A stretch of 64,000 nucleotides of DNA from an uncultured bacterium (GCA_945949875.1 CAMFGH010000002.1:36968-100967); one strand, 5' to 3'. Numbered from the stretch's first letter, positions 13,545-63,838 are shown. Made by a program: numbers and translations. The notes: generated by a model from the letters alone, not told the origin.

Positions 13545-13620
13545 TTACCCCAAAATTCCTCACCAAATGTTTTTTCATTTTTCATACAAAATATGTTCCA
13601 TATGGATTATAATGTACAGT

Positions 13621-33595: not shown

Positions 33596-36500
33596 CTATT
33601 CAAAATCATCAATCATATCCGACAATGGTTTTATATCATGCAGATTACTTCTAAATAACTTGTCCCAAATGTCCAAGCATATCTCACGAACAAAAGGATC
33701 TTCTTTACCTTTATCGAACATGCAAACAATACATTTTACCAAGTCATTCACGATAAATCGATAGCCTCCTTCTGGTGGCATTTGGGAAATACTATTGCCA
33801 ATTGCATTTATGACACGAGCGAAACTACAGATATCTTTGTCACTTTCATAAAGATAGTCCAAAAAAGAATGAATGAGTTGTGCACCTTGATGCGATTCCA
33901 TTAGGTGGATCAGAAATTCTTCATCTCTCTCAATTGCAATGCGCTGATCAAAAAAAAGACGTTTGAACTCATACATTTCTTCTGATGAATGATCAATTAA
34001 ATACATCAGAACTATCTTACTCTTTTCATGATGCTCGTCTGAATCAAAAGAGGAAACAGCTTGTAAACAAATCTTTCCTTGCTGTTTATCGCTGAATTGA
34101 TGGGTCATAATAAAGTTTAATGCATCTTGGTCGTCATGATAAATTGCAACTGCGCACAGTAATCCAGCTGCATGTTCAGCCAAGTCGCTAATCTCTGACA
34201 AACACGCTTCTATCAATACCTCTCTATAATAGGTGCTATTGCTATCATATTCCCGAGACAAAATATCCCAAAACCCATGGGCTGATATAATACGTAAATC
34301 TGTTCTAATGAGCGAATTAAACACTTCTACTGCGAAATCTTTTTCAATATTGTAGTATGGTAAAGCGCAGCTCATAACCGCAAAGCGAACAGCATCATTG
34401 GGGTCATTACTCGCTGACAAGATTGTACTTTTGAACCTATCTCCCAAATTACAATGTTCCCAAAGTAAGGCCGCAATTGCATGGAGAGCACACCCACGTG
34501 CACAATTTATTGAGTTTTCCAGGAGCGAATGGGCAGATTTGTGTTTTGAATCTGAATTGCTTGTAATACTGTATTCGTCTTTAGATGGATGTGGGTGATT
34601 TAGTGCAATTTCCTCAATAATATTGATAATATCGTCCGTCCACACTTCATTTGCATGTTTTTTAATTATGCGTGAGACAGCAATTGCAATATCAGAATTG
34701 TTACTGTGTCCATAACGCCTAATAACTTTACTTACAAGTCCGACATCGAACTCATCTTTTTCGGTGTTATCATCAAAAGCATACAGAACACGAGAAACAT
34801 ACCCCTCATAACAATTTTCTGGAAATGACAGAGCTAATTTCGTAAACCTTAGTGGCTCGCGCTTGGCCTGTTTTCCGAGTGCGGATGCAAATGCCACATG
34901 ATTAGCTTCGACATGGTAGGCACCTTTATCAGAGCCACTCCATCTATCGCTCATTTTATCCTGTGGTGTAGAAATGATTTGAAGCCATGTCTTATCGCTC
35001 AAGCGCTCAGTATAATTCTCCACAGGAGAAACAACGAATTTAGCATCTCCAATAGTAAAGCCACTATAAAAGTATGGAAGTTGAATCCATGGGTTACGAT
35101 TTACAACATCCAGCAGCTGTTTTGAATATACTGATAACCGAGAAATATCCATGCTTTGCAAAAGTGCTTTTTGGAAATGCCCCCAATAAGCATAATATAC
35201 CGATGTGTGAATTGTTTCTCTTACTTCGCGACGCTCTCGAAAGATGTATAACATATGCTCAACCGGCTCTTTCCAAGCGCAGATGTATTGTTCTAACATT
35301 CGAAAAAGATTCAAATCACACAAGGAGGTGAATTTTTGCAAAAATTGTTTTGTATAAGACAAAAAATCATCTTCTCTTACAGAAAATACAAATATTTTGT
35401 TGTCGATATCGGTCAAAAGCCATTCTATTGCTTCGTCTGCATAGCTAATAGGTAGATTTAGAATGGCATGCATAATACATTCATGTCCCACTGCAGATAT
35501 TGGGTAATTTAGCCTCTTTACAAAAGTAATTAACTTATCAGGAGTTGTTTGTGCACATTCTGCAAAAGAATCTTTTACGATTTCGGTGATTGATCGAACA
35601 GCCGACTCGTGATAGCCATTTGATGTCCAATCCTGGTAGTCATTATTCCACCATGAATGTGGCCATCGTGGAAGATAATTAGCTGTTATTGCACAAATTT
35701 GAGGAAACAATTTAGTTACTATTTGCCATGCATATTGTTTAGCATAGCGAGTCATATTATCGGCATCACTGATGTAAATATTTGAAATCTTATTGCTTGG
35801 CCAGCTTTCTATAAGTACCTCGAATAAATCTATGGCTCTTGCGGATAGCCGCTTAATTAGCTCGTGGAATCCTAAAAAATTGTGAAACAGTGTCGGGTTT
35901 TTTTGTAAAAGCCGAACCCGAAGTTTAAACATATTATCAGAATCATCATTTGCATCATGACATAATGTCCAAAATATTTTGCGATCTTGTTCAGGATTCT
36001 TCAATGAAAAAGGTAGTAATCTGTCAGTTACAAAGTCAGATTGTTTATAGTTGATAGATTTTAACAGTAACAGGATTGAATCAGAAGGAAAATTTCCACC
36101 TGAAAGAGATTTCAATCTCATGATAAAGGATGGATGACCATAAAACACAACCTGCGTGATGTAATCTGACCACTCTGGTTTTTGAATATATTCGTCGATG
36201 ATTTGATAAATTTCGGATGCAGGAGTCTCACATTGACTAATTATCTCAAAAACTGCACATTTGAAATAAAAACGAACAGAAGACGACTCTAATAGTTCAC
36301 TGCTCTGCTTGGCAAATAGAACAGAGTCACTTTCCAGTAGATTTTGGAGAACCGTCAACAAACGATATCTAATAAGCGGTGTTTGATCACTTCTATCTCC
36401 AATTAAATCTTTGAGTTCATAGCCTGAATAGATTTTCTTTAAAATGTCTGCTGTTATGAAATAGTCTAAAAAACTCTGATGCGTAAAAGAAATACTTTTC

Positions 36501-38167
36501 GTATCTGAATTGTAATTCAATAGGCCCAACGAAACCAAAAGATCAATTTCGTTTGCTTGGTCTATGAAAATAGCTTGTGGGAGTGAAAAAATCGCCCTAC
36601 TTTCCATTGACATAACTATTTTATTTTTACAGGAAACGACATCTTTGGATTGTAAACCAGCCGAAATACACTTTTGCTGAATCTGCTGCCACCATGTATC
36701 CATTAGTTCAAAGACTGATGAAATGCTGTTTTTCTGTGTGTCTTCTTCGAGTTTGGACCAGACAAATAATGAAGATGGAGTTAGCAGTAATTTTTGGAGA
36801 CGAGATGTGAGGCAGTCATATTTTTGACCTATAATTTGAATAACCTCATCCTTGGTAAAATGATCCATATTCACCTTGACCCACCTCAAAACAGATGGGG
36901 ATTTCGAGGGTGCAAACAGTTCTTTTAATCCTTTATCATTCTCCAAATCAAAAGTGCGAGATGCGAATATAATCGATATTTTCCCTTTCGAATATTTGTT
37001 GATTGCTTCTGCCTGTAGAATGAGTTCTTTACAAACATCCAAGGCATCTCTGGAATGATTGCTTGTCCAACGCAAAGCGTCAAGCTGATCCATAATCAAA
37101 ACACACGGTTTGCCTGCTGATAGGGTAGCCAAACAATAAACTGGAGATTCTGGGAGTCCAAGCTCTTCGCCATAAGCATCTGCAGATTTATGGGGCAGGT
37201 GTTTGTCAAGTTTTACTGAAAGGTAAAGAATTCCTTTTTTCTTTAAGTATAAAATAATTTCTTCCAGGCACCCACTTTTCCCGGTTCCAGCTTTTCCGTG
37301 AAGAACAACCGAACGTTCCTCTTTGATGCACTCAACAATACTATCCGTTGACGTGCGATGTATAAGCGTTTCATGGATAGCATGATAAGAATCCCAATGG
37401 GTGTTATTGAGAACGGAAATTCTATTTAAGACTGTTCTATCGCTGTGATAATTTCGAACATGGATATCTTTGGCTTCTAAGTAATCTATGACGTCTTTTG
37501 CAGTTATTTTTACTCCATAACAGGCGGTATCATTGGCATACTGTTCAAGCAGAACTCGAACAATAGATGCCTTACCCGTGAATACCATGCCGATGTATTC
37601 ATTTAATTCCTGGTCAGCTTCCGTTCCTGTAATATATTGCTCAAAATAACAATGTGATAATATATAAACAGCTTGTTCAACATCTAAAGGAGTGCTTATA
37701 TCAAGCCCAAATTCTGCTACACAGTCATTAAACATACTCCTTATGTTAGTATTGGTTAACTGATAAGTCACAAAATCCGCAGGCGATGAATTAGTTCGAG
37801 CACGCTTGCATAATTCATCCAATTCGTTATACTGCAGGGGTGAAATAAAGTAATATAAGTTTTTGATATCAGCAGCAATGATCTCTTTGGCCCGTTGAAA
37901 GACTTTGTATTTTCTTAGGTCCGAAATGCTCCATGAAGAATGAGTGGTATTACTAGCCTTGCACTGATAGTGCTTAACAGTCCCATCTTTTTGTTCAGAA
38001 ATAAATTCCACAGAGTTACTATTTTCGCCTAATGGCTCAACTGTAACCGAAGTGAGTTCCTCTTTGACAAGCCTTAGAAGAAGTTTTGCAAGGTAACTAT
38101 TCTCGTAATTGTTTCCGTATTTATCAGATCTTCCACCAGGTTCAAGACTCATGGCATAGTCCTCCAT
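33596..38167 (-). CDS. STAND NTPase with N-terminal PD-(D/E)xK-type nuclease-like domain and long helical-repeat C-terminus; probable Avs/NACHT-like anti-phage defence protein
   Basis: N-term GNNYENSYLAKLLLRLVKEEL...VEPLGENSNSVEFISEQKDGTVKHYQCKASN (E, D/E, QCK); Walker A VVLHGKAGTGKSG; Walker B PCVLIMDQLDAL; FTHQSFLDYFIT near end of NTPase region. Confidence 0.8.
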   Translation of the reverse strand: MEDYAMSLEPGGRSDKYGNNYENSYLAKLLLRLVKEELTSVTVEPLGENSNSVEFISEQKDGTVKHYQCKASNTTHSSWSISDLRKYKVFQRAKEIIAADIKNLYYFISPLQYNELDELCKRARTNSSPADFVTYQLTNTNIRSMFNDCVAEFGLDISTPLDVEQAVYILSHCYFEQYITGTEADQELNEYIGMVFTGKASIVRVLLEQYANDTACYGVKITAKDVIDYLEAKDIHVRNYHSDRTVLNRISVLNNTHWDSYHAIHETLIHRTSTDSIVECIKEERSVVLHGKAGTGKSGCLEEIILYLKKKGILYLSVKLDKHLPHKSADAYGEELGLPESPVYCLATLSAGKPCVLIMDQLDALRWTSNHSRDALDVCKELILQAEAINKYSKGKISIIFASRTFDLENDKGLKELFAPSKSPSVLRWVKVNMDHFTKDEVIQIIGQKYDCLTSRLQKLLLTPSSLFVWSKLEEDTQKNSISSVFELMDTWWQQIQQKCISAGLQSKDVVSCKNKIVMSMESRAIFSLPQAIFIDQANEIDLLVSLGLLNYNSDTKSISFTHQSFLDYFITADILKKIYSGYELKDLIGDRSDQTPLIRYRLLTVLQNLLESDSVLFAKQSSELLESSSVRFYFKCAVFEIISQCETPASEIYQIIDEYIQKPEWSDYITQVVFYGHPSFIMRLKSLSGGNFPSDSILLLLKSINYKQSDFVTDRLLPFSLKNPEQDRKIFWTLCHDANDDSDNMFKLRVRLLQKNPTLFHNFLGFHELIKRLSARAIDLFEVLIESWPSNKISNIYISDADNMTRYAKQYAWQIVTKLFPQICAITANYLPRWPHSWWNNDYQDWTSNGYHESAVRSITEIVKDSFAECAQTTPDKLITFVKRLNYPISAVGHECIMHAILNLPISYADEAIEWLLTDIDNKIFVFSVREDDFLSYTKQFLQKFTSLCDLNLFRMLEQYICAWKEPVEHMLYIFRERREVRETIHTSVYYAYWGHFQKALLQSMDISRLSVYSKQLLDVVNRNPWIQLPYFYSGFTIGDAKFVVSPVENYTERLSDKTWLQIISTPQDKMSDRWSGSDKGAYHVEANHVAFASALGKQAKREPLRFTKLALSFPENCYEGYVSRVLYAFDDNTEKDEFDVGLVSKVIRRYGHSNNSDIAIAVSRIIKKHANEVWTDDIINIIEEIALNHPHPSKDEYSITSNSDSKHKSAHSLLENSINCARGCALHAIAALLWEHCNLGDRFKSTILSASNDPNDAVRFAVMSCALPYYNIEKDFAVEVFNSLIRTDLRIISAHGFWDILSREYDSNSTYYREVLIEACLSEISDLAEHAAGLLCAVAIYHDDQDALNFIMTHQFSDKQQGKICLQAVSSFDSDEHHEKSKIVLMYLIDHSSEEMYEFKRLFFDQRIAIERDEEFLIHLMESHQGAQLIHSFLDYLYESDKDICSFARVINAIGNSISQMPPEGGYRFIVNDLVKCIVCMFDKGKEDPFVREICLDIWDKLFRSNLHDIKPLSDMIDDFE

Positions 38168-49741: not shown

Positions 49742-50314
49742 TCACATTTTCTTTCTATCTTCTAAGATTTTTATCTTTCCGAGAACCACTAAAAAGCCTG
49801 TATCATATATAGCTACAGCAATAGGAACAAGTATTTTTTTTGTCCATATTGAACTAAAAATAGCAAAAAAACATAAGGTAATTAAAATTCTAATCACCTT
49901 ATTGTGGTAATCCCTTTTTTCATCTAGCGACAATGGTTTATTCTTTGCTTCTACAGGTGCCATAATTCCTATCGCAATAGCAAACAAAACCATAATCCAT
50001 GTATAATCAAGTATAATATTTTCAAATCTTCTAATACCTGTCAGAGAGGCAATAGTAATAATAGCAGAACTTATTTCACACCGAAATTTTGTTTTCGAGT
50101 GATATCCTCCTCCATATGTTCTTAGTAATATAAAAGAAAACTGAAACACCATGCTCTCTACAACAATCCCCAAGAGACTACCAATTATAAACGTAAATAT
50201 TACATCCAATAATGTGGCAACTATTCTTTTTATACCATAGTTTAATATTACAGTATCTGTTTCAGACAAACTGTTGTTTTGAGCAATGGCATTTAAGATT
50301 TTCCCTTTATTCAT
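49742..50314 (-). CDS. agrB: AgrB-like peptide-processing membrane endopeptidase
   Basis: LLRTYGGGYHSKTKFRCE carries the AgrB His/Cys pair; multiple TM helices. Confidence 0.93.
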   Translation of the reverse strand: MNKGKILNAIAQNNSLSETDTVILNYGIKRIVATLLDVIFTFIIGSLLGIVVESMVFQFSFILLRTYGGGYHSKTKFRCEISSAIITIASLTGIRRFENIILDYTWIMVLFAIAIGIMAPVEAKNKPLSLDEKRDYHNKVIRILITLCFFAIFSSIWTKKILVPIAVAIYDTGFLVVLGKIKILEDRKKM

Positions 50315-50453
50315 ATTTCTTTAAGGCAGAAAGTTCATCTGGAAGTTCTTCCTGATAAAGCTTATAAAAGCAAGCAGAGTTCACTGCAGTTGTAGCCACC
50401 AGCATGGACAAACAGAAAATGCCTTTATAAAGTATTTTCATCATTTTCTTCAT
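50307..50453 (-). CDS. agrD: Cyclic-lactone autoinducer prepeptide, AgrD-like (48 aa; not in the ORF track)
   Basis: MKKMMKILYKGIFCLSMLVATTAVNSACFYKLYQEELPDELSALKKYE; amphipathic/hydrophobic leader, core Cys, YQEELPDEL tail; RBS ggaggg; overlaps agrB by 8 bp. Confidence 0.9.
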   Translation of the reverse strand: MKKMMKILYKGIFCLSMLVATTAVNSACFYKLYQEELPDELSALKKYE

Positions 50454-50552
50454 ATACAACCCTCCTTTTTTCAAATTTTAACATTTTATGTGTGGAACGG
50501 TACCTATTTGTAAAAAAAAGCACCATTATGGTAATTTTTGGTTATAATACAA

Positions 50553-50576
50553 AAAGCAGTGACTTTTCACTGCTTT
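50553..50576. terminator. Terminator-like hairpin between the GHKL kinase gene and agrD
   Basis: AAAGCAGTGA CTTT TCACTGCTTT. Confidence 0.75.
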
Positions 50577-50599
50577 CATTTTCTCCAAACATGTTTTCT

Positions 50600-51853
50600 C
50601 TAAATATTCAAATATATAAATAAATTCACCTCAAATACGTCTTCTGTATAATCAATAAGCATTTTTCCTCCATACTTCTCAACCGTTCTTTTCACGCTGA
50701 GTAACCCTACTCCATGCTCAAATTGTTTTTCTTTTGTTGTTAACAAAACATTATCATTCTCTCGTAAAATACCATCATAATCATTTACTATTTTAACTTT
50801 CATTATGCCCCGATCATATTGCAAAGTCAGTTCAATTCTTTTCCTTTCACTTTTTTGAATGGCTTCGTATGCATTTAGCAAAAGATTACTGAGTATTATG
50901 TTTATATCATAATCATTCACAGGCAAAGATTGAGGAATTCTTATATCTGTAATTAAGTTTCCTCCTATTTTTCCAACAGCATCCATCATATAATTAAGTA
51001 TACTATCTATGCATTCATTTCCAGTATCTACATATAGTTTCCCAGCAACAGAATAACTGTTTATCTTACCTATGTATTCTAATGCCTTTTCTTTTTCATC
51101 TTTTTCAATATAAGTAGACAGTAACATAATATGATGTTTCATATCATGTCTCAATGTTTTATATGTATCATTTGCATTTTGCAGTATCTTAAGCTGATTA
51201 CGATACATTGTCAGTTGTAATCCATACATTTCTTTCTCTTTCTCTTTAACATAATCATTCATCAATTTATCGTATAAATAAAATATGATTATATTGATAA
51301 AAAGCAAAACACATAAAGCACCAACCAATAATATATTGTTATTATAGGTTCCTTCAATCATTACATTCGCAATAAACATGCTTCCTGCCGAAATCAGAAC
51401 AAGCATTAGATCTTTTTTAAACGAAAGCTCTATTCCCCGACGAAACATAACAGTTTTCTCAATTAGCATTTCTAGAATAAAAAAGATAAAGACTGAAAAG
51501 AAAAATCCTATTTCTGCCATCTGAACATCCTTATCTTTTACAAAAATGACCCATGCAACATTCTCTGTCAATAGAGCAAGTCCACAAACAGCAATTAAAG
51601 ATAGCACTTTTCTTTGAAAACTCCCTTTATATCCTGTAAAAATAACAAGAAATAAACCACCTATACTAATCAGAATATTTATAATATCAGAATTGTGACA
51701 CAAATATTCTACGCTGTTTATCAGGAAGTATACGACATATTCAAATAAAACATACTTATTTTTTTGGTATTCTTCAAAGAAAAGACTGACAAAACGATAC
51801 AAAAGATAGGTTCTGAGAGCATTTAATATCAGATAGGAACTTATTTCCAGCAT
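50600..51853 (-). CDS. agrC: AgrC-like sensor kinase (GHKL domain)
   Basis: TYKTLRHDMKHHIMLLSTYIEKDE (H-box), ILSNLLLNAYEAIQKSERKRI (N-box), HGVGLLSVKRTVEKYGG (G-box); N-terminal TM region. Confidence 0.92.
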   Translation of the reverse strand: MLEISSYLILNALRTYLLYRFVSLFFEEYQKNKYVLFEYVVYFLINSVEYLCHNSDIINILISIGGLFLVIFTGYKGSFQRKVLSLIAVCGLALLTENVAWVIFVKDKDVQMAEIGFFFSVFIFFILEMLIEKTVMFRRGIELSFKKDLMLVLISAGSMFIANVMIEGTYNNNILLVGALCVLLFINIIIFYLYDKLMNDYVKEKEKEMYGLQLTMYRNQLKILQNANDTYKTLRHDMKHHIMLLSTYIEKDEKEKALEYIGKINSYSVAGKLYVDTGNECIDSILNYMMDAVGKIGGNLITDIRIPQSLPVNDYDINIILSNLLLNAYEAIQKSERKRIELTLQYDRGIMKVKIVNDYDGILRENDNVLLTTKEKQFEHGVGLLSVKRTVEKYGGKMLIDYTEDVFEVNLFIYLNI

Positions 51854-51854
51854 A

Positions 51855-52595
51855 CTATACTTCTCCCTGTGCTGCTATTTTTCTCTTGATTTCCTTTTTA
51901 TATGTGTTACTTATATGGATCACCTGATCATTGCACATGACTATTTCATTCTCTTTATATGCTTTTACATACTGTGTATTAATAATAAACGAATTATGTA
52001 CTGTCCAAAAGTGTTTAGAATGAATAGCTTTACGAATATCTTTTATATTACCATAAAAATATATTCTTTCTTTTGGAGTCACAATACATTTCTTTCTTCC
52101 CAGACATTCAAAATACATAATTTCTGATGAAAGAATCTTTTCCGTACTTTTTCCGATTTTATATTCGAAATATTCCTGCTGCCTTACAAATAATCGTATA
52201 TACTTTTCAAAGATTTTTATAACAGCATTTTCATTAACTGGCTTTAACAGAAAGTCAAAAGGTCTAATCTGAAATAACTGCATTGCATATTGCTCATAAG
52301 CAGAAATAAATACAATCTGAACTTTTTCGTTCTCCAGTTTTTCCCTCAGCAGTTTTCCCACCTTAACGCCAGTCATTCCTGGAAGCTTAATATCCAAAAA
52401 AATCAAGTCAACATTTTTCTGACTATTATTTTCCATATATTGTATCAGACTTTCTCCCGAATAAAACTGCTCTATATGAATATCTTCTTCTCTTTTCTCT
52501 GCGTATCTCTTAAATGCCTGCTCAATTTGATTACAAACATCTAGCTCGTCATCGCATATTAAAATACGAAACATTCTATCACCCATTAACACCAT
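51855..52595 (-). CDS. agrA: AgrA-like LytTR response regulator
   Basis: FRILICDDELDVCNQIEQAF, DLIFLDIKLPGMTGVKVG, LytTR domain ...FWTVHNSFIINTQYVKAYKENEIVM. Confidence 0.93.
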   Translation of the reverse strand: MVLMGDRMFRILICDDELDVCNQIEQAFKRYAEKREEDIHIEQFYSGESLIQYMENNSQKNVDLIFLDIKLPGMTGVKVGKLLREKLENEKVQIVFISAYEQYAMQLFQIRPFDFLLKPVNENAVIKIFEKYIRLFVRQQEYFEYKIGKSTEKILSSEIMYFECLGRKKCIVTPKERIYFYGNIKDIRKAIHSKHFWTVHNSFIINTQYVKAYKENEIVMCNDQVIHISNTYKKEIKRKIAAQGEV

Positions 52596-53491: not shown

Positions 53492-54577
53492 CTATTCATA
53501 GTGCCAAGCTGTTGGGAAAAATAATTCCACCTCGAATGGTCCATAGTCTATGCCTCGTATTCTCTTTGTTTTTCGGCTACTTATTCTCATTGTAATATTA
53601 TGAATATCCGCCAGATGTCGGCTTAAATATAGGCCTAAACCACTTCCTCTTGTAGTCTCCTTCTTCGCACTCTCTGTCCGATACCCTTTCTGTTCCAGAT
53701 GTCGCATTTCCTCTTCATTACAGTACGGACCCATAGAAGAAATCGTTACTCGTACTCCCTCTTCTGTATTCTCAAAAATCACTTTAACAGTTTCATTTTT
53801 AGGGGAATACTTTACTGCATTTTCAAACAACAGGAATGTCAAAACATCAAACGTGGGATATACCTCATAGGTAGAATGAGTATCTCCAATAAATTCAAAC
53901 GTAACATGTTTATTCATATAATCATTCATAATACATCTGCATTTATGAAATTTATTAAAGATATCTGCTTTATATGTTTTTCCCATTTGCAATATCATTG
54001 GATTAACAGAAACATCATATGCTAAAAATCTGGCTGTCATCATATGGGCCATAGCTTCAATATCTTTTACGAGGCGCATGTTATGCTCTAAATCAAAAGA
54101 GAGGTCATTTTCAGAACGTCTACTATAGTTATTGTTCACTTCTTCCGCACGACTTTGTAACTGAGTACTGAGGTTTCTTATCTCATGTAGCAGATCTTTA
54201 TTCAATTCATCTTGTTTTAAAATCTCATCCTCTTTTTGGCATACTTCCACATAAATATCAACTATATTTTCAAATGTCATTTTATCAAGAAGGGGATTGT
54301 ATACTATTTCATTTTCCTTTTTTTGTCTAAACACTCCTTTAGACGATATATCCTTTATTTTGAAACATGTAAATATAAACTTATGCCCATCAACACTCTT
54401 TACATATGAGGTCATTCCATAAGGACAATTATAATACCCATTTTCTGCACTCGCTAATTTTCGATAAAATTCTGCGCATCTTCCACAAGAAGCATTTTTT
54501 AGGCAATATTGATATGGCTGAATCAAAAATCCTTTCTTGAAATTGGAGCCTTCAATCATACTGATAAAGCGTTTCAT
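53492..54577 (-). CDS. Soluble histidine-kinase-like protein with N-terminal Cys-rich sensor
   Basis: YCLKNASCGRCAEFY...YYNCPYGMTSYV; LLHEIRNLSTQL; LLFENAVKYSPKN; TRGSGLGLYLSRHLADI; no obvious TM helix. Confidence 0.85.
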   Translation of the reverse strand: MKRFISMIEGSNFKKGFLIQPYQYCLKNASCGRCAEFYRKLASAENGYYNCPYGMTSYVKSVDGHKFIFTCFKIKDISSKGVFRQKKENEIVYNPLLDKMTFENIVDIYVEVCQKEDEILKQDELNKDLLHEIRNLSTQLQSRAEEVNNNYSRRSENDLSFDLEHNMRLVKDIEAMAHMMTARFLAYDVSVNPMILQMGKTYKADIFNKFHKCRCIMNDYMNKHVTFEFIGDTHSTYEVYPTFDVLTFLLFENAVKYSPKNETVKVIFENTEEGVRVTISSMGPYCNEEEMRHLEQKGYRTESAKKETTRGSGLGLYLSRHLADIHNITMRISSRKTKRIRGIDYGPFEVELFFPTAWHYE

Positions 54578-55266
54578 TACAGTGCTCCTCCCAGAAAAAA
54601 TTTCACTGCTGCTGACCCTAATACCTGTGCCATCACGCTTTTCACAACATCGGCTCCTTGCTTTGCCATTTTTTCCAGCGGTTTTCTATCTTTCTCTTTA
54701 AAACTGCGAACATACTCACTTTCAAGACGCGCTGTTTCAATTGTACTCACGTCGTTCTTGAGGAGTTTTTCCCTAACCAGTTTCCATTGGTGAACCGGAT
54801 TAACTATTTTATCAATCTCATCATCCAAAATTGCTATCCAGTCTTCTAATGAAGTTCCTTTTGGAATCACATTATCTGCCTCTGCTAAATATGTATTATA
54901 GGAAGCATCATATTGGCTTGCCGTGTATGCAATAACATGCTTGTTTGGATAATTTTTCTTTATTTCTTTGATGATAAATGCACCTTCGAAAGCTTCGCTA
55001 AATCGCTTTCCCACTCCACGAATATCGCATAAGATAATTTCATATGGCTCCACATCTTTAATATTATCGATATCCTGTTTGTGGTACATACTAAAATTAC
55101 TATCTTTTAATCCCTGGCTGACATTAAGTTCTTCATCATCAATAATCAGTATATCCATATTTTTTCGTAAATACATGCGCTGATCTTGATTAATCATGCA
55201 ATCACTTGCTAATTCTCCAATTGTATATTTTATATCATAGAATCTCCCTAATAGTTTCATTTGCAT
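54577..55266 (-). CDS. Divergent response regulator (receiver-like domain with hydrophobic C-terminal tail)
   Basis: NMDILIIDDEELNVSQGL; EIILCDIRGVGKRF; HVIAYTASQYD; NVIPKGTSLEDW; tail ADVVKSVMAQVLGSAAVKFFLGGAL; coupled to HK by TAATG. Confidence 0.75.
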   Translation of the reverse strand: MQMKLLGRFYDIKYTIGELASDCMINQDQRMYLRKNMDILIIDDEELNVSQGLKDSNFSMYHKQDIDNIKDVEPYEIILCDIRGVGKRFSEAFEGAFIIKEIKKNYPNKHVIAYTASQYDASYNTYLAEADNVIPKGTSLEDWIAILDDEIDKIVNPVHQWKLVREKLLKNDVSTIETARLESEYVRSFKEKDRKPLEKMAKQGADVVKSVMAQVLGSAAVKFFLGGAL

Positions 55267-55373: not shown

Positions 55374-55463
55374 TTATTCAGAAATTTCCTTTTCTTTTCC
55401 TTCAATTAAGATATCAATTATTTCCTTGTAATCTTTATAAAAGTTTACTTTTCTCCTTGTCAT
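55374..55463 (-). CDS. 29-aa small ORF overlapping the SGNH gene stop as ATGA
   Basis: MTRRKVNFYKDYKEIIDILIEGKEKEISE; start overlaps upstream stop; not in ORF track. Confidence 0.35.
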   Translation of the reverse strand: MTRRKVNFYKDYKEIIDILIEGKEKEISE

Positions 55464-57001
55464 GGTTCAATCATCCTAAAATCAACAACCATTTTCTCAT
55501 CTTCACCACATGTGATTGCAGCGATACCAACCGCCTTACGATAGTTGTTGTCAAAAACAACAATATGAATCCCGCTCTGATCTATTGCTACTTCTTCCCC
55601 ATTTACCTGAATACAGGGAATCCCATTTTCAACCGACAAGTGATAAGGTGTATCACCCCATTCACCCAAAACTCCATCTGCAGTCAATGCACCATCCGAT
55701 GAATTGGAATATTTTACCTGTTCATTTATGATGACACGGATTGCCTTTTCTCCATCCGGCTTCATTCCCCACCCGGCAAGAACATTTTGATCCGCTATAT
55801 TTTGCGGCCATTCGTAATCTCCTGAGGTTGCCAACAACAAAGAATACCGATCCCCAGATGCCAGTTCTGCCCATTCTGTAAGGGATTGTGTATTTCCCAT
55901 CTGACTTATGACTTCTGCACCACGCTGTACATCTTCTATTTGACTTTTTACAATTTCCGCATGAATCTCTTCTTCCTGTTTATATCTCTGATAATCAGTC
56001 TCCCAGGATACATATGCAGATTCTCCTCGATGATCCGGCAGATTATAGTTCTGAACAATATACTTTTCCAAGAATTCGGTATATTTAGCCGCTCCAAATA
56101 GATTAACGTGATTCTTATTATAGAAATCAGATGTAAAGTCAATTCTCATCTCTTTATAATATTCATTAGCATTCAGATAATCAAATCCATAACTTTCTAC
56201 GATGTCTTCAATCGTGTTATATTTTGCCTGATCCTCTTTTGCCAAATAGTAAGGACATACAACAAACAACGCATTCAGTTGCTCATCTCTACAATAGTTA
56301 AGCAGTTCATACAATATTTCAGACGCATTCTTCGAGAGTTCTGCACGTTCTTCTGTTTGGAAATCCGTTGGTTCTTCTAAATATGCATATTCATCTATCC
56401 ATTCCCATCCTTTATTTGGACTGACTCCAGCGTTATTCTTATACTTCCATGCGTCACTTTTTCCCAAATTTTCGATATTTGTATGATATTTCGCTATATC
56501 AAACAAATACGAAACGACATTTGTATCCTCTGGAATATTTCTGTATTTCAAATAATCCCCAATCAACTTATATCGTGCAATCGACGTCATGTCCATTCCA
56601 TCTGTTCCATTACGTAACCCTACTTCAGCTGGTTGATCTGAATAGTATTGAAAAGCACGTACATCTATCACAAACAGGTCTGGATTTTGAAATCTCCTTG
56701 TTTCTTCTATATATGCTTTGATATTCTCAGCCTGAATATCATTCGTAGCATAACTGTAAGAGGTAATTCCATAGTCGTTCCACGCTTTTAAGGGTTCCCA
56801 ATAAACAAATGCTGCACTGCCACCCACATACACCATATCCACATTTTCCTGTTTGATTCCCATCATGTGCACACGATCACATTCGGTAGTACGAAACAAA
56901 TATGTTACAGTGCAAAACACTTTAGCTAAAATAATGATAAATATTACAAAACCTACAAAGCTTACTATTTTTTTTCGATTCTTTTCTAACCATCTTTTCA
57001 T
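55460..57001 (-). CDS. SGNH-hydrolase/DltD-like membrane-anchored acyl-transfer partner
   Basis: N-terminal TM; DMVYVGGSAAFVYWEPL (GxS block I); FYNKNHVNLFGAAKYTEFL (block V-like H). Confidence 0.75.
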   Translation of the reverse strand: MKRWLEKNRKKIVSFVGFVIFIIILAKVFCTVTYLFRTTECDRVHMMGIKQENVDMVYVGGSAAFVYWEPLKAWNDYGITSYSYATNDIQAENIKAYIEETRRFQNPDLFVIDVRAFQYYSDQPAEVGLRNGTDGMDMTSIARYKLIGDYLKYRNIPEDTNVVSYLFDIAKYHTNIENLGKSDAWKYKNNAGVSPNKGWEWIDEYAYLEEPTDFQTEERAELSKNASEILYELLNYCRDEQLNALFVVCPYYLAKEDQAKYNTIEDIVESYGFDYLNANEYYKEMRIDFTSDFYNKNHVNLFGAAKYTEFLEKYIVQNYNLPDHRGESAYVSWETDYQRYKQEEEIHAEIVKSQIEDVQRGAEVISQMGNTQSLTEWAELASGDRYSLLLATSGDYEWPQNIADQNVLAGWGMKPDGEKAIRVIINEQVKYSNSSDGALTADGVLGEWGDTPYHLSVENGIPCIQVNGEEVAIDQSGIHIVVFDNNYRKAVGIAAITCGEDEKMVVDFRMIEP

Positions 57002-57010
57002 ATGCTTTTA

Positions 57011-58570
57011 CTAAAATCCCTGATATATAAATTCTGCTGCACTATATCCAGGACCATACATCCCCCAGATCAACACTGCTAAGAACAAGCCAATCCAGAT
57101 AATCCACCTAAAAATAAAGCATTGTTTCTGCATCCAGATTCTGGCATATCCATATTTTTCCCTCAGCACGCCTGCAATAATAAGTACCAAAATTGACAAA
57201 AGGATTAGATTCACATCCCCATATGTAATCTCCAGGTCAAGGAAATTCCCATTAAAGAAAATCCATGGATTTGCATAATTCTTAACAAACACTACCTTTC
57301 CAGCATCTTTGATTAGTGTAATACCTCCCGATATTCCAACGCCAAAAAACACTGCCCCAATTGCGTATATGACATAAGTTCTAATGGATTGAAATAAATG
57401 CCATGCAAAACTTTCTGTTTTCATCCCCATACTCGTTGTGACTTTGGTAAAAAAGGGAGTAAGCAGTTCTCCTAGCATGAGGATAATCCAATACCATAAA
57501 CTCACTCCTACGATATACTGCACTCCTCCATGCCATATTCCCATGACCATCCATAAAAAGAACATGCCAACAGCATTCACCAGAAACTTTCCTGTCTTTT
57601 TCCCAAACCGCTTTTTTGTCACCTTTCCTAACTTTATCATTGGTTTGGATTTCAGCAGGGGATACAGCACATAATCCTTTGCCCATGCGCCAAGAGTAAT
57701 GTGCCACCGCTGCCAGAATTCCTGAGATGTCCTAGAGAAAAAAGGATTTCTAAAGTTTTCTGCCAGCCTAATATCAAACAGTTCTGCTGTTCCTAAAACA
57801 ATATCCATACAACCGGAAAAATCTGCATACATCTGCAGTGGATACATTAAAATAGCTATCCATGAATAAAACCCGGTAAACTCTCCCGGATTCCCGGCAA
57901 TCTTGGACACAATTTCGCCAACTCTCTCAGCCAGAACAATTTTCTTAAAAAATCCAAAAAGAATTCTCTGGGCACCAAAGGCAATATTCTGGTATTTAAA
58001 TTGATGTTTCTCAAATAGGCATTCTAACTGGGAATATCTGCTGATTGGTCCAGTTGTCAATTGTGGGAAAAAGGCTGTAAATAGAAACAGTTTTAAAGGA
58101 TTCTTCTGCGGCTCGATATTTTCCCAATAACAATCAATGATATATCCCAGAATCTGAAGGGTATAATACCCCATTCCCAAAGCTGCTACCAACTGCATAT
58201 TTAGTAATGAATCTACACCAGGAATATATATACGTAAAATAAGGCTTTGAGCGCAGAATGCCCATAAGCCTTTTCCTTTTAAAATGAACCAAATTAATAT
58301 ATTTATAAAAATAGCAATTATGGTTACTATAAAGGGTACTTTTAACCCATGATTTTCCTTTTCTCTATACTTCTTCATCCACATCGTAGACAGATAAGCT
58401 ATCAATGTTGAGAAAATCAAATACACTATGGTATAAGGTGTTGCTGCCATATAATAGAAAACCAAACTAAGAACCAATAGCTCTAGCCACTGAATTCTCT
58501 TCGGAACTATATAATAAATTCCTACGCCCACTGTAATAAGAACCAAATAGCTAAAAGATGTGATTGTCAT
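57011..58570 (-). CDS. MBOAT O-acyltransferase (AlgI/DltB-like)
   Basis: FLFTAFFPQLTTGPISRYSQL; YADFSGCMDIVLGTAELFDIRLAENFRNPFFSRTSQEFWQRWHITLG; WMVMGIWHGG catalytic His. Confidence 0.95.
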   Translation of the reverse strand: MTITSFSYLVLITVGVGIYYIVPKRIQWLELLVLSLVFYYMAATPYTIVYLIFSTLIAYLSTMWMKKYREKENHGLKVPFIVTIIAIFINILIWFILKGKGLWAFCAQSLILRIYIPGVDSLLNMQLVAALGMGYYTLQILGYIIDCYWENIEPQKNPLKLFLFTAFFPQLTTGPISRYSQLECLFEKHQFKYQNIAFGAQRILFGFFKKIVLAERVGEIVSKIAGNPGEFTGFYSWIAILMYPLQMYADFSGCMDIVLGTAELFDIRLAENFRNPFFSRTSQEFWQRWHITLGAWAKDYVLYPLLKSKPMIKLGKVTKKRFGKKTGKFLVNAVGMFFLWMVMGIWHGGVQYIVGVSLWYWIILMLGELLTPFFTKVTTSMGMKTESFAWHLFQSIRTYVIYAIGAVFFGVGISGGITLIKDAGKVVFVKNYANPWIFFNGNFLDLEITYGDVNLILLSILVLIIAGVLREKYGYARIWMQKQCFIFRWIIWIGLFLAVLIWGMYGPGYSAAEFIYQGF

Positions 58571-58571
58571 A

Positions 58572-58814
58572 TTACTTTCCCATCTCCATTATGATATCAA
58601 CCATTTCCCCTACATTCTTCATGGTTACGACTTTTCCCATGGGAATTTTAAAACCAAATTCTTCTTCTACCCCTACAATCAGATTAATGTGTTCAAAAGA
58701 ATCCCATCCGTCCACATCATCTGCTACCGTTTCATCATGAAGTTCGATAGATTCATCATCCAACACCTCTCTGAATACGTTGTTTAATCTTTCATACACT
58801 TCTTCTCTTGTCAT
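58572..58814 (-). CDS. Acyl carrier protein
   Basis: 80 aa; VDGWDSFEHINLIVGVEEEFGFKIP with phosphopantetheine Ser in WDSFEH. Confidence 0.95.
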   Translation of the reverse strand: MTREEVYERLNNVFREVLDDESIELHDETVADDVDGWDSFEHINLIVGVEEEFGFKIPMGKVVTMKNVGEMVDIIMEMGK

Positions 58815-58879
58815 TTTTCTTTCTCCTAATATACTATTTCTATTATTACTTTTTGTTATACTGATATATCTTTTCTAAC

Positions 58880-58903
58880 GATTCGTCCCCAGTTTAACGA
58901 ATC
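58880..58903. other. Inverted repeat in the MaoC-ACP spacer
   Basis: GATTCGT CCCCAGTTTA ACGAATC. Confidence 0.45.
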
Positions 58904-58931
58904 TATCTTATCACGAAACGCATCTCAATAT

Positions 58932-59360
58932 CTACCTCATAACCATCACTTTCATTTTTGCTCTGGACACCGTTTTCTGGTTCTGGTTTTTTATCACAAC
59001 CTTCAACCGAATAAGCCCCAGCGCCTCATTTTTATCGATTACTTCCCCTTCCACAGTCAGTTCATCTCCGGCAAAAACCGGTTTCAAAAAAGACAGTTCA
59101 TCAAAACTATGTATCAGACTATACTTCCCCGGCAGATACATTCCTGCCATGGTAGAGTATAAAGAAGCAGTAAGCATACCAAAGGAAACATGGCCTGGGA
59201 ATTTGCCTTCCCCAATTTCCTGTGCAAATACATCATCCTGATGCAGCGGATTTTCATCCCCTGAAATGGTCCGAAATGCATCCTCCATTTCTTTCGTTAT
59301 GGTTCGTTTAAAGGAGGCTTTTAACCCAGGCTCTATTTCAGAAAGCACAAACTCATTCAT
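58932..59360 (-). CDS. MaoC-like hot-dog dehydratase
   Basis: FRTISGDENPLHQDDVFAQEIGEGKFPGHVSFGMLTASLYSTM. Confidence 0.93.
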   Translation of the reverse strand: MNEFVLSEIEPGLKASFKRTITKEMEDAFRTISGDENPLHQDDVFAQEIGEGKFPGHVSFGMLTASLYSTMAGMYLPGKYSLIHSFDELSFLKPVFAGDELTVEGEVIDKNEALGLIRLKVVIKNQNQKTVSRAKMKVMVMR

Positions 59361-60275
59361 TTATAGCGCCTCCTTGATCTTTTTATAAATGCTCTCCGCA
59401 TCCAGACCATTGGCTTTTCTTACCATCTTCAGGGTTCCATAGCCGGATGCAAATACGTCTTGTATTCCAATCGGATACACCCTCGCGGATACACCATGAT
59501 AAGCCAGGGTTTCTGCCACCAGGCTTCCAAGTCCACCGTGAATGTTATGTTCTTCCACAGTAAATATCTTTTTTATATTCTTTGCTGTTTCCAGAACGTC
59601 TTTTTCTCCAAAAGGTTTCATTGTCACTACATTCTTTAATTGTACGGATATGCCATCTCTTTCCAGCATCTCTGCTGCTTTATCAGCTTCTTCCAGGATG
59701 CTTCCTGTTACATAAATAGCAATGTCCTTTCCGGCTCTGATCAGATCATTGCTGCAAAGATCCAGTTTATAATCTTCCTCGAAAAATTCCTCTTCATTGT
59801 TCATTCCGATTTTGATATACACCGGTCCCTTATGCTCGTATGCAATTCTTACACACTCAGCAACCTGCATGGGAGTACCCGGTGACAAAATCATCAAATT
59901 CGGGATTGCCCTCAGTACCGCAATATCCTCTGTGGTATGATGGGTAGGTCCTAAAGAACTCCAGGAAAGTCCGCTTCCCATTCCCACGATTTTCACATTC
60001 AGATTTTGAAAGCAGACATCATCCCGGATAAATTCCATGGAACGATAGGCCAGGAAAGCCCCTGCAGTAAACACAAAGGGGATTTTTCCTACCGATGCCA
60101 TTCCGGCAGCTGCTGCAACCATATTCTCTTCCCCGATACCAAAATTATAGATTTGATCCGGAAAATTTCTACGAAACATTTCATCATAGCCGGTTCCACT
60201 GTCTGCCAGCAAATGAAGCACGTTGGAATCCAGCTCGGCCAGCTCCATCAATTTACTTATATAAGAACGATTCAT
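59361..60275 (-). CDS. Transketolase C-terminal (Pyr plus C-domain) subunit
   Basis: IYNFGIGEENMVAAAAGMASVGKIPFVFTAGAFLAYRSMEFIRDDVC; TVEEHNIHGGLGSLVAETLA. Confidence 0.93.
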   Translation of the reverse strand: MNRSYISKLMELAELDSNVLHLLADSGTGYDEMFRRNFPDQIYNFGIGEENMVAAAAGMASVGKIPFVFTAGAFLAYRSMEFIRDDVCFQNLNVKIVGMGSGLSWSSLGPTHHTTEDIAVLRAIPNLMILSPGTPMQVAECVRIAYEHKGPVYIKIGMNNEEEFFEEDYKLDLCSNDLIRAGKDIAIYVTGSILEEADKAAEMLERDGISVQLKNVVTMKPFGEKDVLETAKNIKKIFTVEEHNIHGGLGSLVAETLAYHGVSARVYPIGIQDVFASGYGTLKMVRKANGLDAESIYKKIKEAL

Positions 60276-60278
60276 GCT

Positions 60279-61112
60279 TTACTCCAATTCTGAATCACTG
60301 ATGCCCAGTTCTTCTTTAAATACCTTTAATTCTTTCCGTCCCGGAAGTCTGAAATGCCAGTTAGGATTGTTCTCCATGATGGAGACACCTTTCCCCTTAA
60401 TGGTATGGGCTATTACCAGTCTGGGTTTTCCTTTGACCAGATCCTGCTTCATCACATCACAAAAAGCTTCCACATCATGCCCATCCACCTCTTTTACATC
60501 CCAGCCGAAGGATTCCCATTTTTCCTTCCAACGGGTTTCTCCTATTGTCTTATCCACAAAATCCATTTTCTGGATCCGGTTACTATCCAGTATAGCCACC
60601 AGATTGTCTACGCCAAACCCGGGAGCTGTCATGACAGCTTCCCAGACTGTTCCCTCCTGGCATTCTCCATCTCCCAGCATAACGTATACCTTTGCCGGAC
60701 TATGGTTCATTTTCAGTGCCATAGCTATCCCCAGTCCCATGGACAAGCCATGCCCCAGCGAACCTGTAGTGGCCTCCACCCAGGCACAGTCCCTCATACA
60801 GGGTTCTCCACCGATTTCCGCATTTTCCTGCAAATAGGACGCATATGCCGATTCTTTTATCAGCCCTGCCCTGCACAGCACCGCATAAAGAGCAAGGCCG
60901 GCATGTCCCTTGCTTAAAACGAACCGGTCTCTATCATTCCATTTGGGATTTTGAGGATCATATCTAAGTATCCCCTTTTGATATAAGGCATATATCATTT
61001 CCAGACTGGAATAACAGGATGCCAGATGAGCCATCCCACCTTTATACCCGGTTATGAAGATCTGTTTTCTTAATTCCAATAAATCTTTTTCTACTTCTAC
61101 TGTATTAGCCAA
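60279..61112 (-). CDS. Transketolase N-terminal (TPP-binding) subunit
   Basis: DRFVLSKGHAGLALYAVL; GSLGHGLSMGLGIAMALK; VMLGDGECQEGTVWEAVM; DSNRIQ. Confidence 0.95.
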   Translation of the reverse strand: MANTVEVEKDLLELRKQIFITGYKGGMAHLASCYSSLEMIYALYQKGILRYDPQNPKWNDRDRFVLSKGHAGLALYAVLCRAGLIKESAYASYLQENAEIGGEPCMRDCAWVEATTGSLGHGLSMGLGIAMALKMNHSPAKVYVMLGDGECQEGTVWEAVMTAPGFGVDNLVAILDSNRIQKMDFVDKTIGETRWKEKWESFGWDVKEVDGHDVEAFCDVMKQDLVKGKPRLVIAHTIKGKGVSIMENNPNWHFRLPGRKELKVFKEELGISDSELE

Positions 61113-61962
61113 ATTCCGTTACCTCATCTGAATCGATTCCAATCCCACCGCAATAGGGGATAGCATCTATAAATCTCATTTCCTCATCTGTCAGTTCAAA
61201 ATCAAACACATCTATATTCTGATAAAGTCTCTCTCTATTGGAAGTCTTAGGGATGACCATGAGCCCCTGTTGAATCTCCCACCGTAAACAGATCTGTGCA
61301 GGGGTTTTCCCTTTCTGCTCAGCCATCTCCAGTAATTCTTTTCTTTGTAAAATCTGTCCGTTCCCAAGAGGGCTGCTTGCTTCCATCTGAATCCCTTTCT
61401 GCAGACAGTATTTCATGATTTCCTCCTGCCTCATTCCGGGATGAAGCTCCATCTGATTCAAAAAGGGTATGATTTCTGCTGTTTTGCTTAAGGCTTCCAG
61501 ATGATGTTCTTTGAAATTACAGACTCCTATTGTCTTTACATAGCCGTCTCTGTATAGTGCTTCCATCCCACGCCAGGTCTCTGCATTGATTTCCGCCCAG
61601 TTCTCATACAATTTCATGGATGCCGGCCAATGGATCAGATAGATATCCAGATAATCTGTTTTCAGTTTTTTTAAAGACCTTTTACATGCTTCCTGTACTG
61701 CATCGTAGCCTCTGCTTGTATTCCAGACCTTATCCGACAGAATAAGCTCTGATCTGGGGATTCCTGCCTCTGCTATAGCCTTTGCCACAGCGATTTCATT
61801 GCTGTAAGCCGCCGCGGTATCAATCAGACGATATCCTGCATCATAGGCATTTTTTATCAGAGATTTCATAATCTCACGGTCTGTTATCTGCCAGGTTCCC
61901 ATACCAATCTGTGGCAAAGATGTACCATCTCTAAGGGTAATTTCTCTCACTTTATCTGTCAT
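61105..61962 (-). CDS. Aldo/keto reductase (AKR5-like)
   Basis: MGTWQITDREIMKSLIKNAYDAGYRLIDTAAAYSNE; DYLDIYLIHWPA; VIPKTSNRERL. Confidence 0.93.
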   Translation of the reverse strand: MTDKVREITLRDGTSLPQIGMGTWQITDREIMKSLIKNAYDAGYRLIDTAAAYSNEIAVAKAIAEAGIPRSELILSDKVWNTSRGYDAVQEACKRSLKKLKTDYLDIYLIHWPASMKLYENWAEINAETWRGMEALYRDGYVKTIGVCNFKEHHLEALSKTAEIIPFLNQMELHPGMRQEEIMKYCLQKGIQMEASSPLGNGQILQRKELLEMAEQKGKTPAQICLRWEIQQGLMVIPKTSNRERLYQNIDVFDFELTDEEMRFIDAIPYCGGIGIDSDEVTEFG

Positions 61963-62017
61963 ATATTCCCTTTTCTCTTCTGTCTTTTCTGTTCTATCAT
62001 CATCGGTCCCACATGTT

Positions 62018-63838
62018 CTAGCCCTGCTTTTCCGGTTCGTTTACAGAAATCACATGTTGTTTCTTCTCGTATTCTTCCGGAATCACATACTCCCAGACTG
62101 TATTTCCTTCTTCATCTTCCGAGACTTTCGAAAATCCCTGTAATCCGTAGAAATCCTTCACCATAGCATTTTTCGCTGTGGGATAATAATAGCCTATGAT
62201 CTTCTTGATTCCTATTGTTTTGGCTTTCTCCACCAGTTCATCCATCATGGCAAATTCCATATCGCGTTTCAGCACTCTGCAGCTCATAAGCCACAATTCC
62301 ATATGGAGTTCATCCCGGTTTTCTCCCTGGATTTTTCCGATGACTGTACTTACTACTCCGCTGTCTCCAAACTTGTCCCCCAGCTTTCCGTATAAAGTGA
62401 TATGATCCTTATCCCGGGCAACCTCTTCGATTTCGGACTGGCTGTAGCGCTTTGTGGTTAAATTAAACTGATTGCTCTTATTGGTAAGCTGAGCAATACG
62501 GGACATATACATAGGATTGAAGCTATCGATTTCTCCCTTCATCTCCAGAGATTTCAGATAATCCTCATAACTGGAAAATGTCGCCTGAAGTTTACTTCTT
62601 TTTGCATTTTCCTGATACATTTCTGTTCTCTTCAAATCATCCTGAGACAAAACCGTCACTTCAAAGAATCCCGACTTATCAATGGTCTGGATATAATGCT
62701 CTACGCCCTCGATTTCCGGAACTGCCACTCCCGGAATCTGAGCCTCAATGATCGCCCTTTCTGCCGGATTATCATCCACAAATACAAAGCTTTCAGGAAG
62801 CAATGTCATTTCGGAAGCTGTCTCGGCAAGATTGGCGCTCTTTGGATTCCAGTTTGCTTTTATATTTACAAAATCCTCCTCATGAAGCACACTATCCGGT
62901 CTTGCAAGACCTGACAGCGCATTTTCCTTCTCATTTTTGGAGTTAATAGTCAAAAGGACTCCCAGTTGTTTATGTAATTTCAGATAATCCTGAAACTCAC
63001 TATAGGTCTGTGCCAAAGAAGTTTCCTGCCCAATCTCAATATTCTCTGCACCATCATCTCCGACGATTCCGCCCCAGAGTGTGTTATCCAGATCCAGATT
63101 AAAGGCTTTCTTATTCTTTCCATAAATGGATTTTATGATATTTGCCACATTAAAAGATAAGTACGGTATGGCAGGTACTGCAACTGCATACTTGTACATA
63201 TGCCAATAAAATGGATCTGCCCATTTATCCAGCCCGTAGGAAGCTGAAATATAATTGATATCACAAATATAAAAGTTATCATGGTTCTGTGCATAATCAT
63301 AAAAAGCACAGTTTAACATGGTCACAAAATTTACTCTGCCATGATAGTCACTGGCATCTTTGTTGCCCATCAGCCTGAAAAATGGAAGTTCAAAATTGTT
63401 CTGAATCACCGGGCAATGATAGGTCTGTTCCAGATGCTCCCACAATCCATAAAATTTTTGTACTACCTGATCTCTTTTTTGCTCTACCACTTCTTTACTG
63501 TCCGAAAGAAGTGGAAATTCTCCAATATTTCTGATACAGGTGCAAACATAAATCAAATCCGGTTCAAATGCCTCCAATTGCGGATTAGTAAACATTCCAT
63601 CCTCATAATACTGATTGTATTCTGATTCATAGAAAGATGGCTTTATTCCGTAATGAAGCAGAAAAAGTTCCAGCACCAGCTTAATATTCTGGGTTGTCTG
63701 TCCACCCAGAATAGCAATCTTTTTTTCCATAAAATTTACATCCGGATTTTCCAGCATTCTCCGCTTCAGGGATTTTTTCTGTTTCAGTATTTTTTCTGCA
63801 TCAAAAGGGTATTGTAGTTCTTTCATATTCACTCTCAA
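62018..63838 (-). CDS. FkbH-like HAD-IIIC phosphatase (putative glyceryl-ACP synthase)
   Basis: KKAFNLDLDNTLWGGIVGDDGAENIEIG (DLDNTLWGG); FVFVDDNPAERAII; C-terminal acyltransferase-like segment. Confidence 0.92.
   Translation of the reverse strand: MRVNMKELQYPFDAEKILKQKKSLKRRMLENPDVNFMEKKIAILGGQTTQNIKLVLELFLLHYGIKPSFYESEYNQYYEDGMFTNPQLEAFEPDLIYVCTCIRNIGEFPLLSDSKEVVEQKRDQVVQKFYGLWEHLEQTYHCPVIQNNFELPFFRLMGNKDASDYHGRVNFVTMLNCAFYDYAQNHDNFYICDINYISASYGLDKWADPFYWHMYKYAVAVPAIPYLSFNVANIIKSIYGKNKKAFNLDLDNTLWGGIVGDDGAENIEIGQETSLAQTYSEFQDYLKLHKQLGVLLTINSKNEKENALSGLARPDSVLHEEDFVNIKANWNPKSANLAETASEMTLLPESFVFVDDNPAERAIIEAQIPGVAVPEIEGVEHYIQTIDKSGFFEVTVLSQDDLKRTEMYQENAKRSKLQATFSSYEDYLKSLEMKGEIDSFNPMYMSRIAQLTNKSNQFNLTTKRYSQSEIEEVARDKDHITLYGKLGDKFGDSGVVSTVIGKIQGENRDELHMELWLMSCRVLKRDMEFAMMDELVEKAKTIGIKKIIGYYYPTAKNAMVKDFYGLQGFSKVSEDEEGNTVWEYVIPEEYEKKQHVISVNEPEKQG

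Follow-up and report, generated by a model that had tools for sequence, protein, structure and literature searches.

What acyl group is built where an FkbH-type protein, a split transketolase and an acyl carrier protein (ACP) are encoded together with a membrane-bound O-acyltransferase (MBOAT) and an SGNH-like protein, and where is it delivered? The question is raised by an eight-gene operon in a 64,000-nt stretch of DNA from an uncultured bacterium (GCA_945949875.1, CAMFGH010000002.1:36968-100967; hereafter the window). The draft genome comprises 2.76 Mb, and its contig C2 breaks off where the window ends, which leaves only ~160 nt to be read upstream of the FkbH gene. We consider it probable, at roughly 65%, that the operon is a self-contained Dlt-like envelope-acylation system that assembles its own acyl group.

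The eight genes are arranged head to tail and are transcribed from position 63838 to 55460 (Table 1). Profile hidden Markov models (HMMs) identify seven of the eight products above curated cut-offs: FkbH, the aldo-keto reductase (AKR), both transketolase halves (TktN and TktC), MaoC, ACP and MBOAT. The AKR and TktN genes overlap by 8 nt, TktC and MaoC abut with a gap of 0 nt, and ACP and MBOAT are separated by 1 nt; the further gaps are 55 nt (FkbH-AKR), 117 nt (MaoC-ACP) and 9 nt (MBOAT-SGNH). Pfam and NCBIfam HMM scans of the operon open reading frames (ORFs) revealed no ketosynthase (KS), acyltransferase (AT), nonribosomal peptide synthetase (NRPS; A or C domain) or condensing enzyme and no lipoyl gene, and the ORF list and HMM scan contain no AMP-binding gene for a DltA-type D-alanine ligase. 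Promoter and terminator scans of the operon gave signals that are not clearly above shuffles. Because a phosphopantetheinyl transferase family gene (PF01648) is present in the genome, the ACP can in principle be activated. An earlier note, made from the sequence of the window alone, had described eight consecutive, tightly spaced genes on one strand; all were recovered at the positions and in the order it gave, on the minus strand and with the overlap, the abutting pair and the 1-nt gap as it had claimed. Its view that this is not an ordinary polyketide cluster agrees with the absence of KS, AT and NRPS genes among the operon ORFs. The gene identities it proposed hold for seven products by HMM, whereas the SGNH assignment lacks an HMM match and depends on motifs and a weak homologue match.

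Table 1. Genes of the operon, followed by other features of the window (positions counted from the first nucleotide of the window).
Feature	Position	Strand	Remarks
FkbH-type protein (FkbH_N + HAD-IIIC + C-terminal domain)	62018..63838	-	TIGR01686 271.7 bits (cut-off 146.65); PF21211
Aldo-keto reductase, DkgA-like	61105..61962	-	PF00248 (Aldo_ket_red) 183 bits
TktN, N-terminal half of split transketolase	60279..61112	-	PF00456 (Transketolase_N) 136.8 bits; TTG start
TktC, C-terminal half of split transketolase	59361..60275	-	304 aa; PF02779 (Transket_pyr) 97.1 bits; PF02780 (Transketolase_C) 74.8 bits
MaoC-type hotdog hydratase/dehydratase	58932..59360	-	PF01575 60.4 bits
Acyl carrier protein	58572..58814	-	PF00550 22.6 bits (cut-off 20.8); phosphopantetheine site GWDS
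DltB-like membrane-bound O-acyltransferase	57011..58570	-	PF03062 38.8 bits
Membrane-anchored SGNH-like protein	55460..57001	-	N-terminal hydrophobic helix; extra C-terminal domain (~residues 370-513)
Sensor kinase and response-regulator-like protein	53492-55266	-	response-regulator-like protein without Pfam match
agr-like quorum-sensing block	49742-52595	-	AgrB, GHKL sensor kinase, LytTR response regulator; low G+C
1523-aa protein with AAA/STAND-like NTPase region	33596-38167	-	PADLOC candidate family PDC-M54A 62.7 bits
Three CotH-like kinase proteins	10064-16107	two -, one +	the + one with Fn3-associated and LTD domains; third protein at 11766-13544

The recurrence of this eight-gene order is far beyond chance. 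A scan of 85,462 species genomes for the TktC clade returned 14 loci with 54-74% identity, all from Lachnospiraceae or Oscillospiraceae, and the next matches fall to 38%. These loci and the window, allowing for genomes seen twice, make up 15 Tkt-type genomes, in which the order FkbH-(AKR)-TktN-TktC-MaoC-ACP-(SDR)-MBOAT-SGNH is found wherever the contigs are long enough (SDR, short-chain dehydrogenase/reductase); the AKR gene is present in most of them. The earlier note had proposed that an acyl group is built on the ACP and handed to the MBOAT and SGNH proteins, and had named an unconserved neighbourhood as a finding that would contradict it. The FkbH/ACP cassette and its link to the presumed export pair are in fact conserved, the same gene order being kept across the 15 genomes. 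The cassette lies in unrelated surroundings, near recombinase-like genes in one genome (L037) and, in another (L123, 4834-13748), as a whole FkbH-Tkt-MBOAT operon flanked by trmD and rplS, whose ribosomal neighbourhood is otherwise conserved (names by eye). On the FkbH tree the Tkt label requires four changes, compared with 10.9 for shuffled labels, and at least three are forced by well-supported branches, so the Tkt cassette shows clustering, yet it has become associated with more than one lineage of FkbH.

In a survey of 299 genomes of the same family, 63 contain an FkbH match, ~30 of them close (>55% identity). ACP is encoded next to or near FkbH in most of the 41 neighbourhoods that were fetched, and an MBOAT lies inside the FkbH neighbourhood (mostly 20 kb) in 19 of the 25 genomes counted, where 6.6 MBOATs per genome of ~3 Mb would lead one to expect ~1. 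Beside this core, three modules are exchanged: a VOC protein, MaoC with a FabG-like SDR, or MaoC with TktN/TktC and AKR. The SDR accompanies MaoC in six of the eight testable loci without Tkt, which makes no rule, and the SDR was rejected as an obligate MaoC partner. The VOC-family protein found beside FkbH-ACP in L040, L042, L049, L055, L058 and L061 resembles methylmalonyl-CoA epimerase and may epimerise glyceryl-ACP. Some FkbH-ACP-MaoC loci have no MBOAT nearby and encode instead a GNAT (L069) or an AAC(3)-like acyltransferase (L074, L075; names by eye), which may use the same acyl group to N-acylate an amino sugar. In L121 (12211-16806), a DltA/DltC-like pair (under the Dlt cut-offs), an MBOAT and an SGNH gene directly follow the FkbH-Tkt operon; this pair may activate an acid other than D-alanine.

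The split transketolase departs from the ordinary enzyme. Its residues (yeast numbering) were read from an alignment with solved transketolases and other split transketolases. The FkbH-linked TktN retains the thiamine diphosphate (ThDP) motif (GDG...N) together with His30, His69 and His263, and TktC retains the catalytic Glu418 and His481. However, His103 is replaced by Glu in every FkbH-linked TktN of the 15 genomes, whereas it is His in all 46 rows of other split transketolases (some genes are counted twice; at least 38 are distinct). In addition, His469 is replaced by Gly and Asp477 by Leu in 18 of 18 FkbH-linked TktC rows. In transketolases generally, the role of His469 concerns the phosphate and that of Asp477 the donor hydroxyls. 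Some split transketolases encoded in glycan loci have also lost these two residues, whereas Glu103 occurs only in the FkbH-linked copies; His103 is needed for substrate recognition in the yeast enzyme, according to a 1995 study as cited in PMC3352088. The 8-nt overlap of TktN with AKR is preserved in several homologous operons. Pfam and NCBIfam scans of TktC found Transket_pyr, Transketolase_C and an overlapping PFOR_II match, and no lipoyl or acyltransferase domain. Contig C26 of the same genome encodes a further split transketolase, whose residues are canonical (H-H-H-H; E-H-D-H-R). The fixed residue changes and this separate canonical pair speak against a housekeeping enzyme and make an ordinary pentose-phosphate transketolase, the outcome that the earlier note had set against its own proposal, unlikely. 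TktN/TktC genes near FkbH in L046 and L061 were discarded as further cases, as they have canonical residues and unrelated neighbours. Two glycan loci (L109, 8321-11172; L110, 7340-15084) encode a split TktN/TktC without His469/Asp477, an SDR, a stand-alone ACP, an AMP-ligase and LuxE/LuxC-like proteins (names by eye), which would constitute another ACP-linked non-canonical transketolase system.

The remaining acyl-building proteins retain the motifs of their families. In FkbH, for which 3slr was matched in the PDB, the DxDxT motif of HAD enzymes (DLDNT) is found in 50 of 54 homologues and (M/L)SCR in all 54; translation more probably starts at the ATG at 63826 (MKELQYPF..., common to homologues) than at the TTG at 63838. 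FkbH is predicted to charge the ACP with D-glyceryl from 1,3-bisphosphoglycerate; the ACP site (DGWDSFEHINL) keeps its Ser in all homologues listed. MaoC enzymes dehydrate 3-hydroxyacyl thioesters, and the MaoC protein of the operon, with a catalytic motif (GDENPLH) retained in 25 of 27 homologues, is predicted to dehydrate a beta-hydroxyacyl-ACP. The AKR motifs DTAAAY and YLIHWP are present in most homologues, including the copy in the window, and the enzyme is predicted to reduce a keto group of the ACP-bound acyl chain. In two operons (G163, L129) the AKR is missing and a FabG-like SDR is found in its place, which fits the ketoreductase role. The operon of a congener (G300) is closed by a type II thioesterase gene (PF00975, 77 bits), as in carrier-protein pathways.

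The MBOAT and the SGNH-like protein form the presumed export side. PDB sequence matches of the MBOAT are DltB structures (8jem/6bug), and its AlphaFold2 (AF2) model (pTM 0.78) has DltB as the best fold match (E 9.6e-10). His290 and His347, the MBOAT histidines, are invariant in 11 homologues. The score against the DltB equivalog TIGR04091 is 125 bits, far under the cut-off of 375. The protein ends with FIYQGF (residues 514-519), of which F514, I515, Y516 and F519 are invariant in the 11 homologues; model confidence is low over the last 14 residues. Of 30 MBOATs encoded in FkbH loci, 25 end exactly with FxYxxF, as do all 12 complete MBOATs of Tkt-type loci. This sequence is the acyl-shuttle motif that carries acyl-Tyr in DltX and PatA; pathways with a fused motif use acyl-coenzyme A (CoA) without a carrier protein, whereas Dlt has a carrier and a separate DltX (PMC12148441). 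The present operon joins a carrier protein with an MBOAT-fused shuttle motif, and the adjacent ACP suggests that the carrier, instead of acyl-CoA, is the MBOAT donor. In the SGNH-like protein, Ser62 (GGS) and His298 and Asn300 (DFYNxxHxN) are invariant in five homologues, one of which (L048, 30% identical) has a weak Lipase_GDSL_2 match. These motifs and the homologue match point weakly to an SGNH-like, final O-acyltransferase.

Taken together, these features are compatible with the following route. FkbH would transfer glyceryl from 1,3-bisphosphoglycerate to the holo-ACP, giving glyceryl-S-ACP, as is established for FkbH and ACP in tetronate pathways (PMC4979870; Sun et al., 2008, as cited in PMC4552970). 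MaoC would remove water from the ACP-bound 2,3-dihydroxyacyl group to give 2-hydroxyacryloyl-S-ACP, the enol tautomer of pyruvyl-S-ACP; for this operon, loading and dehydration are presumed from family knowledge. The split transketolase would then add a two-carbon unit to the keto carbonyl of pyruvyl-S-ACP, and AKR or SDR would reduce the product. Addition to the keto carbonyl is the likeliest extra step and has a precedent in Rif15, the split transketolase of rifamycin biosynthesis that attacks a non-sugar ketone of rifamycin S (PMC6002545); the two-carbon addition and the exact acyl product are speculative. In sister operons without Tkt, MaoC and SDR would yield lactyl-S-ACP. The DltB-like MBOAT would take the finished acyl group from the ACP and place it, outside the membrane, on the Tyr within its own C-terminal FIYQGF; from there the anchored SGNH-like protein would hand it on, as an ester, to an envelope polysaccharide or teichoic acid. 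This relay from carrier to Tyr to SGNH is presumed from family knowledge, and the DltB-like fold, the two histidines and the terminal hexapeptide of the MBOAT support it. The most specific form of the proposal, which we regard as possible but doubtful in its full detail, is that a split transketolase that depends on ThDP and whose donor pocket has been rebuilt (Glu103) forms a C-C bond on glyceryl-derived pyruvyl-ACP without a ketosynthase or lipoyl partner, and that the resulting branched polyhydroxy acid is exported by a DltB-like MBOAT with a fused Tyr shuttle.

Other roles can be envisaged for the transketolase. As the earlier note had supposed, TktN/TktC might be a second acyl loader that moves a C2 ketol from a ketose phosphate to give glycolyl-ACP, resulting in glycolyl or mixed glyceryl/glycolyl esters. 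A split transketolase beside an ACP recalls the known chemistry of the quinocarcin and scleric-acid pathways (PMC6335953, PMC7570522), and the catalytic Glu and ThDP motif are retained. However, QncL and SclQ4 complete the transfer with lipoyl and acyltransferase domains that are found neither in the 304-aa TktC nor in the operon, so the parallel drawn to naphthyridinomycin and quinocarcin does not hold; FkbH and MaoC would also be left unexplained, and the His103 that serves substrate recognition in yeast is Glu in every copy. We consider such a loader improbable. Somewhat easier to accept, if still unlikely, is a transketolase that works on free metabolites, for instance to make an uncommon sugar or acid that enters the same glycan, while the MBOAT receives plain glyceryl or lactyl from FkbH, MaoC and AKR. 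FkbH-less glycan loci (L107, L108, L111, L112) do encode split transketolases without His469/Asp477, and the FkbH-ACP-MaoC-SDR operons that have no Tkt would be enough to make lactyl; against this, in all 15 genomes the Tkt genes are tightly placed between those for FkbH and MaoC-ACP, several of these operons are not part of a glycan locus, and the Glu103 signature is restricted to FkbH-linked operons.

The destination of the acyl group can also be questioned, since the MBOAT and SGNH proteins might acylate or export a small diffusible natural product instead of a wall polymer. The thioesterase gene in the G300 operon, the occurrence of FkbH in tetronate and polyketide pathways (PMC4979870) and the position of the operon at unrelated genomic sites would suit such a product, which is made quite improbable by the lack of a KS, AT, NRPS or condensing enzyme in the operon and by the MBOAT with a C-terminal Tyr shuttle and an adjacent SGNH-like gene, an arrangement of envelope-polymer acylation (PMC12148441). 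That ordinary housekeeping genes became neighbours by accident deserves hardly any credence: the transketolase, AKR and ACP families are common, but the genome has its other, canonical split transketolase on C26, and the conservation of the order in 15 genomes together with the Tkt residue signature refutes the idea.

Several observations weigh against the envelope-acylation reading itself. The SGNH-like protein has no significant match to DltD or any other Pfam or NCBIfam family, its family profile finds no match in the PDB, and its AF2 model is poor (shallow alignment, pLDDT 58), and the Foldseek matches are meaningless. Neither AKR nor SDR is found in the Tkt operons L123 and L127, and the MaoC loci L069 and L075, which have no Tkt, also lack an SDR, which weakens the lactyl and keto-reduction logic and leaves it not airtight. 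We know of no transketolase that acts on the keto group of an acyl-ACP without a lipoyl partner, and the loss of His103, His469 and Asp477 could also indicate that the donor has changed or that activity is weak. The operon is often not part of a polysaccharide locus, as in L123, and gives no pointer to the acceptor. The functional steps are read from genes and residues.

Among known systems, Dlt resembles the operon in having a carrier gene immediately next to that of an MBOAT with the DltB fold and the two catalytic His residues, and in having an anchored SGNH-like partner. The operon differs in that no adenylating DltA is present, the acyl group would come from FkbH, MaoC, Tkt and AKR, and no DltX was found, the FxYxxF shuttle being fused to the MBOAT C-terminus. 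The MBOAT-SGNH acetyltransferases of the PatA/PatB and AlgI type likewise have FxYxxF at the exact MBOAT C-terminus, but use acetyl-CoA without a carrier protein (PMC12148441), whereas here the ACP gene is 1 nt upstream of the MBOAT. FkbH and a stand-alone ACP also occur in the tetronate and methoxymalonyl cassettes; in contrast to these, the operon has no KS/FabH-like condensing enzyme or polyketide synthase, and the product would pass to the MBOAT. The loading module of bryostatin BryA (FkbH-ACP-KR-DH) has been proposed to form D-lactyl-ACP, for which our literature search gave no confirmation; compared with that module, the proteins here are stand-alone, Tkt is added and there is no polyketide extension. 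Rif15a/Rif15b is also a two-subunit transketolase; it acts on a non-sugar ketone, as proposed here, but its substrate is a macrocycle, not an acyl-ACP. NapB/NapD, QncN/QncL and SclQ combine a split transketolase with an ACP, and the lipoyl and acyltransferase domains that these naphthyridinomycin/quinocarcin-type systems carry on or beside the TktC part (PMC6335953, PMC7570522) are absent here.

Other features of the window were recorded alongside. A sensor kinase and a response-regulator-like protein are encoded directly downstream of the SGNH gene after a 193-nt gap; they are a possible regulator and are not conserved in G300. The agr-like block also lies downstream of the operon. The 1523-aa protein is a possible anti-phage defence gene. 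The CotH-like kinase proteins lie amid large membrane glycan genes; two are confirmed by HMM and the third is assigned by resemblance.

Bacterial envelope acylation is known mainly with D-alanine, which is carrier-borne, and with acetyl from acetyl-CoA. MBOAT-SGNH acylation of the envelope fed by a carrier or by CoA is already known; what is new here is where the acyl group comes from, together with the rebuilt transketolase. The open-access literature that we searched (subscription papers were outside its scope) contains no description of FkbH joined with an MBOAT, polysaccharide modification and a split transketolase. The system can be tested, since apparently cultured strains carry it (Dorea sp. 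5-2 and Lachnospiraceae bacteria GAM79 and X68). If the proposal is true, acyl-CoA and adenylated amino acids would be joined by a third source of activated groups in envelope acylation, and an unusual ThDP enzyme would be available for study. A widespread gut-bacterial family that builds a hydroxyacyl group on a carrier protein from glycolytic intermediates and hands it to an MBOAT and SGNH pair would also represent a surface modification of a new class among commensal Lachnospiraceae, one that would be likely to affect surface charge and recognition by phages and the host.

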